Positions 37,845 through 42,991 of a stretch of DNA of 64,000 nt are shown here, piece by piece (within the stretch, counting starts at the first letter, position 1; each line of letters opens with the position of its first letter). Source of the stretch: Henriciella sp. (GTDB taxonomy: Bacteria > Pseudomonadota > Alphaproteobacteria > Caulobacterales > Hyphomonadaceae); NCBI GenBank assembly GCA_029238175.1, contig JAQWGO010000050.1:1-64000 (forward strand), read 5' to 3'. The position numbers and the translations under genes were made by a program. The notes beneath the pieces were generated by a model. It was not told the DNA's origin. It made no database searches and saw nothing but the letters and a program-made list of their open reading frames with translations.

Positions 37845-37871
37845 TGTCCCGACACTTTTTTCCTAGCGTCT
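37845..37871 (+). promoter_or_regulatory. promoter-like element, copy A (TGTCCCGACAC...GCGTCT)
   Basis: 20/27 identical to the element at 38694-38720; TGTCCC-N16-CGTC spacing typical of ECF-sigma promoters. Confidence 0.5.
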
Positions 37872-37946
37872 TGGCAGGTTCGTGCTTTTATTATGAGACG
37901 CGACAATAAGAATGAGGGCCGTTGGTCCTGCCATTTGGGAAGAGAC

Positions 37947-38657
37947 ATGAAACGCCGCGAAAAGAAAAGTGAGAGCCTGGATATCCGTCTGCCATATGAG
38001 CAGAAACGGGAATTCATGGATGCCACCCGCAAACAGGGTGAAACCGCATCCGAAGCTCTAAGGCGTTTTATTGCTGCTTACACTGAGGAAGCGCGACTGA
38101 CCGAGAAAACAAACCCGGTTCAGGAGATTAGAATGACCCTTGCTCGCCACCGCCTTAAAACCCTTGCTAGCGCCACCGGCGCGGCCATTGGCGTCTTTGC
38201 CATTACAGCCCTGCCCTCAGCAGCGAATCAAACCGCTTTCGAGCGCCTCGACAAAAACCAAGATGGCCTCATTACCGAGGGTGAAATTCTTCCCGGGGAA
38301 GATGCGGACATTATCGCGAAACTCGACACAGACGGCTCGGGCGGCGTCAGCCAAGCGGAGTTAGAAGCTGCGGGAAACAAGATCGTCATTCACAAGAGCG
38401 AAAGCACGACCGGTGACGACGACAAGGAAATCGTGCGCAAGAAAGTCAAAATCATCGAGTTCAGCGATGAACCTCGGGACGGCGCAGCAACCAAAATGAC
38501 TAGCAATGTCGAGAAGCGCGTTATCGTCAAACGTCTCGGCGATAAGGAATTGTCTCAAGAAGAATTAGACGCCTTGATTAAGGAGGCACTCGAAGAAGCG
38601 GGCGTGGACAGCGACATTGATTTCGACATCGATATTGAAGAGATCATCGAGGAATAG
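37947..38657 (+). CDS. RHH-like domain + TM/signal helix + EF-hand protein
   Basis: SLDIRLPYEQKREFMDATRKQGETASEALRRFIAAY (RHH-like); hydrophobic segment; DKNQDGLITEGEI and DTDGSGGVSQAEL EF-hand loops. Confidence 0.8.
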   Translation: MKRREKKSESLDIRLPYEQKREFMDATRKQGETASEALRRFIAAYTEEARLTEKTNPVQEIRMTLARHRLKTLASATGAAIGVFAITALPSAANQTAFERLDKNQDGLITEGEILPGEDADIIAKLDTDGSGGVSQAELEAAGNKIVIHKSESTTGDDDKEIVRKKVKIIEFSDEPRDGAATKMTSNVEKRVIVKRLGDKELSQEELDALIKEALEEAGVDSDIDFDIDIEEIIEE

Positions 38658-38691
38658 CGCCCCAAAAATTTAATCAGTATGCCAGTCAAAC

Positions 38692-38720
38692 CGTGTCCGG
38701 ACACGAATTTGCTGGCGTAT
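38692..38720 (+). promoter_or_regulatory. promoter-like element, copy B, containing perfect 14-bp palindrome CGTGTCCGGACACG
   Basis: Palindrome 38692-38705; TGTCCG-N16-CGTA. Confidence 0.5.
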
Positions 38721-38794
38721 GAACTCGTTTTCGGTTTTCTTTCAGGTCTGATCAGGGCTCGATGTGTGGGTCCGACGGGAGCCTTGGAAAAAGC

Positions 38795-39420
38795 ATGACG
38801 AAGAAGCGTATCGAAAAGAAAACTGACATGATTGAAGTGCGCATGCCGCACTCCAAAAAAGAGGCCTTCAAAGCCGCATGTGAAGCCGAAGGCATCACGG
38901 TCAGTCATGCCGTACGTAGCTTTGTTGATGCTTACCTCAAGCGCTCGCGCCGGATGAAAATCCAACGCATCACAAAGGATGTCTCAATGACCCTTATTCG
39001 TAACCCGATAAAGACCACATCAAGCCTTGGCGCCGTGCTCGCAGCAACAATTACTGCGATCGCATTTTCGGCCACGCCAAGCGCCGCAGAAAACTATGTA
39101 GCCCCCTCAACCTAACTACTATAGAGTATCCAGCCGAGCTCGCTCTACAGGGCGTTACGGCGGCGTGTGAGGCGCGGTTTGATATTGCGCCTAGCGGCAG
39201 AGTAGAGGGCGCCGTGGACGTAGACTGCACCCATGACGGTTTTGACCAAAGCGTCAGAGCCGCCGTCTACACGCTAGAATATGATCAAAAAATAGTCGAC
39301 GGAAAAGCCGTTGAACAACTTGACGTTGTCTATCCGTTTGAATTTGAGATCGTCACCTTAGATGGGCCGGTTGATGATTTCGCGGAACCCAACCTAACAG
39401 GCCCTATTGAGGCTGAGTAA
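38795..39420 (+). pseudogene. RHH-like domain + TM/signal helix + TonB C-terminal-like domain, interrupted by a 1-nt frameshift
   Basis: First part stops at 39115; continuation in the -1 frame LNLTTIEYPAELALQGVTAACEARFDIAPSGRVEGAVDVDC...FEI from about 39106 to 39420. Adding one C to the CCCCC run (about 39101-39105) restores one ORF. Confidence 0.65.
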
Positions 39421-40648: not shown

Positions 40649-42991
40649 TTAGTTGATTGAAACGGATGCGCCGCTTGAGAGGTCTTTACTGACTTCTTTT
40701 GGATTGCCGCTGACCCGGACAGCAGATCCACTTGAGGCATCAACATCAACACGGTTTGAAGCATAAACGCTGATTGAAGATCCGCTGGAGGCGTCAACAT
40801 TGGCACGGCTGCACTCAAGCTTGTCCATTCTAACAGATGAGCCTGATGAGGCATCCAAGAACAGTGTCTTACAGGCCCCTTCAAGGGTTAGTGCAGACCC
40901 ACTTGACTCATCAACGCGCAGATCACCGGCAACAACACTGCCTTGGAATGATGATCCTGATCCCGCATCAACGCTCTTCAAAGACTTTGATGACGCGTAG
41001 ACCGTTAGTTTCGGGCCTTGATTGCCATACGAATTATGCTTGCCTTTGCGGTATACTTTTAAAGTCCGGCCTTCGACTTTGACATCAACATGATCCCAGC
41101 TACCACGCTCAAGCTTGGCGGTTACCGACGCATTGGGGTCTTGAGTATAAACAACTGAGAGGCCACTACCAACTTCGACTTTGTCGAAAGACTTCGTGCC
41201 AAAGTCACGTGTTTCTGTACCTGAGACCATCTTTGCGCTACTCGCATCGCTATAAGCAGCTGAACTCGCATAGCTATAAGCAGCTGAGTTACGCTCTGAA
41301 CGCTTTTGGGCGCGCTCAACTTGACGCTCAGCTTTCTCTGCCGCGCGCTCTACTTGGCGCTCCGCACGCTCAGCATCGCGTTCAGCCTTCTCAGAAGCGC
41401 GCTCTGCATCTCGTTCAACGCGTTCCACTTGAGCTTCGACCAGCATCTCAACCCTTTGAGCCCATTCATCGGCGCGCGCTTCAATACTATCTGAATGTCT
41501 AGCCGCCCAAGCTTCGATCATGGGCTCCATATCTTCACCCCAAGTCTCAGCCTGTTGCTCGACGAGCTCTCCCCAAGCTTCCATTTCTTCGCCCCAGGCC
41601 TCCATATTGGATTCCCACGCCGCATAGGCTTCACTATTCTTAAAACCCTCAAAGTCCTCTGTGTTTAAGGACATATGAAAGCTGCTCCCATCCTGATCCA
41701 TGCTCATACCTGGCAAGGCGGGGAGAGCTGGCATTTCAGGCATAGGAGGCATAACGGGCATATCATCTGTTGAGAACTCAAACGTCTCTCCGTCGACGGT
41801 CACTATAAATGACATTTTTCCATTATCTTCGACAAAAGTGCTTGTCTCTGTGCGGCTTTTTTCACCGCCATCAAGTTCCTGAGCGACTGAAGAAGCGGTT
41901 GCGAAAACGGCGCCAGCGCCAAGAGCGACCGCAAGGGTGCCACCAAGCAGGCGACTGCGTAGGGAGGGAGTTGGATTCGTCATCATTATTAGTCTTTCTT
42001 TTATAGGATGAGCGAGGGTTAAGCTCGCGGCAGCGATCCGACGATCTGAGGGACGGGCAAGACGCGCTGCTTTGACCAACGTACGGCCATAGGCAGCAGG
42101 CGACAGCTTGGCCCGATTAATAACATCCGCATCACAAGCAGACTCTTGGTCTGTGCGGAAGGCGTGCAATCCAAGGTGGACAAGCGGATTGAACCACTGG
42201 GTTGCGGCAATGATACGCGCGGCTTGGAAAGCCCAAAGGTCGCGGCGCTTAAGGTGCATAAGCTCGTGAATGATCGCATCGCGGCGCTCACCAATTGTAT
42301 AGTCATCCTCAAACCACATTGGCAGCAGAATGACAGGGTTCTTGAGTCCGGTCACAAGCGGGCCAGAGCAAAGAAGACTGGCACGAACTTCCGGCACACG
42401 CTTCAAGCCAAGCTGGCGAGCGATGCGAACGGTTTCAGTAGCGGTTTCTTCGTTTGCGGGCTGGGAATCATCCTCGATCAACTGCAAGAATTGGCGCTGT
42501 TGATAGATAGAGCGTCCGAGCCAGAGGACCGTCCCAGCAACCCAGACGATCGTCAGGATCAGGGGCGCCTGGACCAGGACGGCCTCTAGCAAGCTTGTTC
42601 CAGAGGTTGCAGCCTCTGTCGTTGTTTGAATGAAAGTCGCAGCAGGCTCAAACGCGCGCTCAGGCACTGCTGTTGCGGGCTCTGCAGCAATCATTTCGGC
42701 GGGATCAGGCGACGTATTGAACACGATGGCCGGCGCAGTGAATTCATTTGGGGTTGCAGAACTTGGCGTTCCCGGTGTCCATCTCAGCAATCCAGATAGC
42801 GACCAATTGCCAGGCAAAGGCGGCATCACAAAGCGCACAAGCGGCAAGGCCCATAGCAGGTAGCCAGCCTTAGCACCGAAGCGGCGCGAGAACGGCTTTC
42901 GGACAACCAATACTAACGTGATCAATAATCCGACGGCGAATGTTGTGCGCAGGGCTTCCTGCACGACTGGGTGAAATTCTGTCCAGCTCAT
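40649..42991 (-). CDS. BlaR1-like M56 metallopeptidase fused to coiled-coil stalk and GIN/DUF2807-like C-terminal domain
   Basis: IIHELMHLKRRDLWAFQ (HExxH), N-terminal TMs, ERDAERAERQVERAAEKAERQVERAQKRSER coil, C-terminal repeated SSGS-type beta-helix DASSGSSVRMDKLECSRANVDASSGSSIS. Confidence 0.85.
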   Translation of the reverse strand: MSWTEFHPVVQEALRTTFAVGLLITLVLVVRKPFSRRFGAKAGYLLWALPLVRFVMPPLPGNWSLSGLLRWTPGTPSSATPNEFTAPAIVFNTSPDPAEMIAAEPATAVPERAFEPAATFIQTTTEAATSGTSLLEAVLVQAPLILTIVWVAGTVLWLGRSIYQQRQFLQLIEDDSQPANEETATETVRIARQLGLKRVPEVRASLLCSGPLVTGLKNPVILLPMWFEDDYTIGERRDAIIHELMHLKRRDLWAFQAARIIAATQWFNPLVHLGLHAFRTDQESACDADVINRAKLSPAAYGRTLVKAARLARPSDRRIAAASLTLAHPIKERLIMMTNPTPSLRSRLLGGTLAVALGAGAVFATASSVAQELDGGEKSRTETSTFVEDNGKMSFIVTVDGETFEFSTDDMPVMPPMPEMPALPALPGMSMDQDGSSFHMSLNTEDFEGFKNSEAYAAWESNMEAWGEEMEAWGELVEQQAETWGEDMEPMIEAWAARHSDSIEARADEWAQRVEMLVEAQVERVERDAERASEKAERDAERAERQVERAAEKAERQVERAQKRSERNSAAYSYASSAAYSDASSAKMVSGTETRDFGTKSFDKVEVGSGLSVVYTQDPNASVTAKLERGSWDHVDVKVEGRTLKVYRKGKHNSYGNQGPKLTVYASSKSLKSVDAGSGSSFQGSVVAGDLRVDESSGSALTLEGACKTLFLDASSGSSVRMDKLECSRANVDASSGSSISVYASNRVDVDASSGSAVRVSGNPKEVSKDLSSGASVSIN
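41241..41288. repeat. 24-bp in-frame tandem repeat x2
   Basis: CTCGCATCGCTATAAGCAGCTGAA / CTCGCATAGCTATAAGCAGCTGAG (22/24 identical). Confidence 0.85.

Follow-up and report, generated by a model that had tools for sequence, protein, structure and literature searches.

The window analysed here, a 64,000-nucleotide stretch of Henriciella sp. DNA, contains two adjacent genes that appear to belong to a previously undescribed group of membrane-linked ribbon-helix-helix (RHH) self-regulators in Caulobacter relatives. Taken as a whole, we consider it probable that these genes encode autoregulated, membrane-inserted RHH regulators. We predict that the RHH head remains in the cytoplasm and that a signal-peptide-like segment threads EF-hands or a TonB_C domain across the inner membrane. 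RHH dimers would bind, within the promoter of the gene that encodes them, a palindromic operator (O1) and, more weakly, a second copy (O2); the residue equivalent to Arc Gln9 would read base specificity.

Two genes with RHH heads and exported domains

The first gene (37947..38657, forward strand, as are all features below unless noted) encodes a 236-aa protein in which an RHH domain is followed by a linker, a signal peptide or transmembrane (TM) segment, an EF-hand pair, and an acidic tail. The RHH domain (residues 7-47, KKSESLDIR ... ALRRFIAAY; 37965..38087) is predicted by AlphaFold at pLDDT 91-98 and has relatives in Pfam and the PDB. The hydrophobic segment (38133..38225) ends in PSAA. The EF-hand pair (38229..38369) has loops of the canonical Ca2+-binding type and exceeds the Pfam cut-offs for EF-hand_6 (8.4e-7; score 28.6, cut-off 25) and EF-hand_1 (27.8, cut-off 25.4). 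Its fold is predicted with good confidence by AlphaFold, and the Foldseek matches are calmodulin, parvalbumin, and lanmodulin. The first-pass annotation had placed EF-hands downstream of a DNA-binding head and a hydrophobic segment, and this is borne out: all of these parts lie within a single open frame, which would yield a full-length fusion of about 26 kDa. Comparison of 10 orthologues indicates purifying selection throughout, with pN/pS values of 0.18 for the RHH domain, 0.22 for the linker, 0.17 for the signal segment, and 0.15 for the EF region.

The second gene (38795..39115) encodes an RHH domain, a linker, and a signal peptide or TM segment. Its RHH domain (38825..38935) matches RelB (6e-4) and ParG (1.6e-3) in Pfam, both below the gathering cut-offs, and is also recognized via AlphaFold and Foldseek. 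The signal-peptide-like segment (38987..39088) ends in PSAA and is preceded by AAAGGA and an in-frame ATG. As claimed at the outset, the N-termini of the two genes are paralogous and continue into a similar hydrophobic segment (37% identity, E 1.4e-12). The frame closes after ...AENYVAPST, at a stop codon (39113..39115), and the TonB_C domain (39109..39420; Pfam TonB_C 2.1e-6, with intact relatives) lies in the -1 frame. The proposal of two neighbouring genes with swapped exported domains thus stands for the EF-hand gene, which occupies one frame, and falls for the TonB_C domain, which is out of frame in this assembly.

The frameshift is located between about 39089 and 39112, and intact RHH-TM-TonB_C genes are present in other Henriciella. 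One relative, L028, is also frameshifted. A programmed frameshift in the second gene was considered and rejected: the run does not form a classical slippery heptamer, the frame of intact relatives continues without a shift, and L028, similarly broken, has its break at a different place. Mutation or assembly error is the likelier explanation; the TonB_C branch may be decaying, or the two assemblies may be in error. Genes neighbouring the pair in the window and in relatives are uppP-like and epimerase-like. Elsewhere in the window (40649-42991, reverse strand), a BlaR1-like M56 peptidase is fused to a DUF2807 head-GIN domain.

Several lines of evidence place the heads among RHH proteins, as had been proposed for both N-termini from their residue pattern. 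Pfam matches across the family are mainly to RHH families (RelB, RHH_1, RHH_9, ParG, and NikA-like), with RelB found in 13/16, RHH_9 in 8/16, and RHH_1 in 7/16. Sequence matches in the PDB include DinJ (1.8e-5), ORF56, ParG, and RelB. In AlphaFold monomer predictions the two helices exceed pLDDT 90. Foldseek retrieved ParG, PutA (ranks 2 and 5), NikA, Arc, AmrZ, and CopG, with the weak E-values of a 51-residue RHH (best 0.07). The heads share the strand-helix-helix order, a conserved ribbon with near-invariant E/D and R, and a G-x-[ST]-x-S turn. The family head very probably binds DNA.

The order of RHH domain, linker, membrane segment, and exported domain recurs in one open frame in at least 125 distinct relatives, most of which belong to Caulobacterales. 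Matches were identified in 81 of 150 related genomes searched, and the strong ones are almost all uninterrupted through the head, linker, and membrane part. Named relatives come from Henriciella, Ponticaulis, Hyphomonas, Hellea, Parvularcula, Caulobacter, Phenylobacterium, Brevundimonas, Aminobacter, and Sphingomonas; elsewhere in the class, matches are sparse. Besides EF-hands and TonB_C, the exported domain can be a beta domain lacking a Pfam match (a beta-rich form occurs in L066, L069, L071-L075, L282, L298, and L301). The suggested combination of RHH head, TM segment, and variable domain was recovered in this search. The broader idea of a modular, membrane-tethered DNA-binding platform holds for the one-frame assembly of head, membrane segment, and exchangeable exported domain, but in this genome the TonB_C module has been frameshifted off. 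Among the EF-hand proteins of Caulobacter listed in a 2026 paper (PMC13171946) is a probable transmembrane protein with one or two EF-hands, which may belong to the same family.

A hydrophobic segment follows the head in 117 of 121 members, and the net charge of +3 before it and -1 after it indicates an N-in orientation by the positive-inside rule. Membrane insertion is very likely on these grounds. The segments that end in PSAA look like cleavable signal peptides rather than anchors alone, and cleavage by signal peptidase is a reasonably likely outcome. Some members have no clear cleavage site (e.g., L073 and L113), so cleavage is not essential in all.

In the first gene, AGGAG precedes an in-frame ATG at 38133 (38122..38135), a possible internal start that would produce the signal peptide and EF-hands without the RHH domain. 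Dual translation is one alternative reading: the internal ATG and its Shine-Dalgarno sequence would give a normal secreted protein, and the upstream start an RHH fusion serving mainly as a co-made autorepressor. Both AGGAG and the AAAGGA of the second gene are correctly spaced. Across Hyphomonadaceae, an ATG at the signal peptide start carries a Shine-Dalgarno match of at least 5 nt in 45% of cases versus 20% of synonymous recodings, and synonymous sites have diverged less in the linker (pS 0.41 versus 0.55-0.69). However, the enrichment is only about two-fold among relatives that are not independent. Furthermore, no ATG, GTG, or TTG occurs in the linker of 33 of 84 non-redundant members, including all listed minimal Caulobacteraceae types, so these members could supply the exported part only within the fusion. 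We regard dual translation as possible, although not as the favoured account. The same fusion-only members, along with one-frame fusions across families, indicate that head and TM segment are translated together, which the first-pass annotation had named as a point on which its proposal could fail.

A candidate operator and the ribbon residue that tracks it

About 100 bp upstream of both genes we identified the palindrome TGTCNNGAC[AG], usually (G)TGTCCGGACA(C), which is present at this position in 87 of 123 family members (71%). Chance is ruled out as its source, as after shuffling a mean of 1.2 members carried it (about 1%). Not mentioned in the first-pass annotation, this palindrome supplies the main evidence of the present analysis. 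O1 of the first gene, TGTCCCGACA (37845..37854), lies 102 bp before the start codon, and O1 of the second, GTGTCCGGACAC (38693..38704), is perfectly palindromic over 12 bp and lies about 101 bp upstream of the start. The composite-site model assigns them E-values of 4.3e-6 and 1.4e-7, respectively, with both sequences in its training set. A second, weaker copy is centred 22 bp past O1, which corresponds to two helical turns. In both window genes this O2 is degenerate (CGTCTTGGCA, 37867..37876, and CGTATGAACT, 38716..38725), and was recognized from alignment and from position-specific conservation in 56 aligned upstream regions. A clear palindrome is absent from the own promoter of 36 of the 123 members; among members linked to the signal peptidase gene lepB (see below), half have it before lepB only. 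In three members with a His ribbon (L054, L055, and L068; KKTTHLE[VI]R), the upstream element differs and is half-palindromic (CCGGACACGAAA / GTCCATGCACG). No Rfam match was obtained for an RNA element at the locus. We conclude that the palindrome is almost certainly the operator of the RHH heads.

The operator core tracks a single residue of the ribbon, the position marked x in KKSE-x-[LI]-E-[VI]-R. Lys at this position accompanies a CATG core in 10 of 10 cases versus 0 of 78 in others (Fisher 2e-13), and Arg accompanies ACGT-like cores (ACGT, ACGG, and CCGT) in 8 of 10 versus 0 of 78 (7e-10). Ser, Thr, or Met is found mostly with a CCGG core. In a gapless, by-eye alignment of the head with Arc, x, E, and R fall on Gln9, Asn11, and Arg13, the residues through which Arc contacts bases (PMC12645479). 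On an RHH tree built from 41 columns with x masked, Lys changes six times; two independent contrasts fall on well-supported branches and both agree, and Arg corresponds to one clade. This covariation ties the RHH head to the palindrome and, within the limits of the tree, indicates that ribbon residues read operator bases. It is strong but tree-limited evidence that the head binds the palindrome. A head with Thr at x would prefer TGTCCGGACA, and Lys there would shift the preference to TGTCATGACA. In the orthologues of the first gene (L006-L015), Asp in place of Glu in the ribbon (LDIR) goes with the asymmetric cores CCTG, CCCG, and CAGG, making this a possible second specificity position, seen in one clade only.

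Targets and the possible role of the membrane part

The composite-site model spans 41 nt and was partly trained on its own matches. All sites that it found at E<1e-3 in 61 genomes either precede family genes or are relics. One relic operator (L209:2870, G019:C39) survives in the same interval, between uppP and the epimerase gene, in a Henriciella genome from which the second gene has disappeared, and another precedes a broken family gene. From this confinement of strong sites within the window's family, we infer that the window genes regulate themselves, which we consider highly probable. A wider regulon in Hyphomonadaceae was sought and none was found: lone TGTCCGGACA sites in the window's own genome are inside large ORFs (by eye prfB- and purL-like), and across the genome TGTCNNGACA shows no enrichment (35 occurrences versus 31 for the reversed pattern). 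A scan of the window region found no sigma-70-like promoter. By analogy with other RHH autoregulators, binding would be expected to repress, and binding to the two sites may be cooperative.

Exclusive self-regulation throughout the family was dropped as an explanation once the background control revealed palindromes before neighbouring genes, mostly lepB in Caulobacteraceae. In that control the motif was present in 63 of 818 non-family upstream regions (7.7%), a figure raised by the presence of lepB, by promoters shared between divergent genes, and by spurious ORFs. In 32 Caulobacteraceae loci, a signal peptidase I paralogue (lepB) is adjacent to the RHH gene and usually convergent with it. 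The operator occurs near the lepB start in 31 of these 32 loci (L129, L133, L137, L141, L143, L144, L146, L149-L151, L153, L155-L158, L160-L166, L168, L169, L057, and L062 are such loci) versus 0 of 21 canonical lepB loci, which were picked irrespective of RHH genes. Five of the RHH-adjacent genes were identified as Peptidase_S26 (E 1e-43 to 1e-50). The RHH head of Caulobacteraceae appears also to control the dedicated signal peptidase I gene next to it. The lepB gene of the window's genome lies at another place (G000:C65:33767), and a genome-wide search identified no palindrome just upstream of lepB. Divergent neighbours share the operator region at L108/L193 and L049/L053 (a membrane protein, YVVIFALA.., in Parvularcula and a protein starting MIRISRRSALLGAG), and are possible extra targets.

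The lepB-linked proteins also stand out in their processing sites. P-[STAV]-x-A is found after the TM segment in 27 of 27 distinct lepB-linked RHH proteins versus 56 of 96 others, and two lepB-linked members (L121 and L153) have lost the EF-hand, keeping the RHH domain, TM segment, and cleavage site. Both the lepB link and the strict retention of the signal-peptidase site make a response to export or processing a better candidate, in our view, than plain calcium sensing. Export or signal-peptidase cleavage may alter the location or dimer state of the head, and hence DNA binding, so that whether the protein has been processed may be as important as any ligand. Tentatively, and as one idea among others, we suggest that the protein reports how much signal-peptidase or export capacity is available: the sensor would be the signal peptide that it carries, and cut and uncut forms would differ in DNA binding. 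Feedback would then fall on its own gene in Hyphomonadaceae, including the window, and on the dedicated signal peptidase I gene in Caulobacteraceae.

Periplasmic one-component sensing, in which Ca2+ bound to EF-hands or a TonB-box partner bound to TonB_C alters RHH dimerisation and then transcription in the manner of ToxR/CadC, seems rather unlikely; the first-pass annotation had proposed a coupling of this general kind. It would fit the retention of head and membrane part alongside exchangeable exported domains, the confident prediction of the EF-hand fold, and the permanently tethered appearance of L109, L073, and L113, which have no cleavable site. Nevertheless, the EF-hand is missing from the two lepB-linked members named above, cutting at the conserved P-[STAV]-x-A would part sensor from head, and regulation seems directed chiefly at the family's own gene. 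A reading in which a different transcription factor binds TGTCCGGACA, leaving the RHH part only as a dimerisation module, is very improbable given that the operator core co-varies with a ribbon residue equivalent to a base-contacting residue of Arc, that the ribbon E/D and R hardly vary, and that strong sites are confined to family genes, adjacent lepB, and relics. Least credible of all is an artefactual joining of overlapping genes or misread starts, such that RHH and exported parts never form one protein; internal ATGs with Shine-Dalgarno sequences in many members and the frameshift in the second gene would suit it, but codon-level purifying selection spans the junction and one-frame fusions recur across families and orders, even where no internal start codon exists.

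Comparison with known regulators

In the open-access papers searched, we found no description of a membrane RHH regulator, of this palindrome as a bacterial operator, or of RHH control of lepB. The proposed regulator class now has an operator, a target set, and a ribbon residue matched to the core in each of three specificities (CCGG, CATG, and ACGT-like), and it places RHH heads on proteins that are predicted to be membrane inserted and exported. If the lepB link is true, control of signal peptidase supply becomes directly testable; we know of no such regulator of that supply.

RHH autorepressors and antitoxins, such as RelB/DinJ, ParG, CopG, Arc, and MetJ, typically regulate their own promoters. 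The window family shares their head fold, residue pattern, and short palindromic operators. However, those proteins are soluble, whereas here the head is fused via a signal peptide or TM segment to an exported domain. A toxin-antitoxin pair was also considered and rejected, because in the loci read the RHH genes have uppP-like, epimerase-like, or lepB neighbours and no adjacent toxin gene.

NikR is similar in that its RHH dimers bind at a spacing of about 22 bp along the same face of the DNA and are coupled to a metal-binding domain. In NikR, however, that domain is cytoplasmic and forms the tetramer, and there is no membrane segment. PutA carries an N-terminal RHH domain on a larger protein with another job and controls its own gene. 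It resembles the window family in this autoregulatory N-terminal RHH domain and in associating with membranes, but it is a proline-oxidising enzyme without a TM segment or signal peptide. Relatives of the second gene are like TonB in having a TM segment and then TonB_C (Pfam 1.1e-7). They are not canonical TonB proteins: they differ in their RHH head and cleavable-looking site after the TM segment, and the long proline-rich spacer of a TonB transducer is absent from the intact relatives. The window's own TonB_C domain has lost the reading frame of its gene.

With ToxR and CadC, a class that it resembles in action but does not belong to, the family shares, judging from sequence, a cytoplasmic N-terminal DNA-binding head, a single TM segment in N-in orientation, and an exported C-terminal domain. 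The differences are that the head is RHH rather than a winged helix-turn-helix, that a signal-peptidase site usually follows the TM segment, and that self-targeting is strong.
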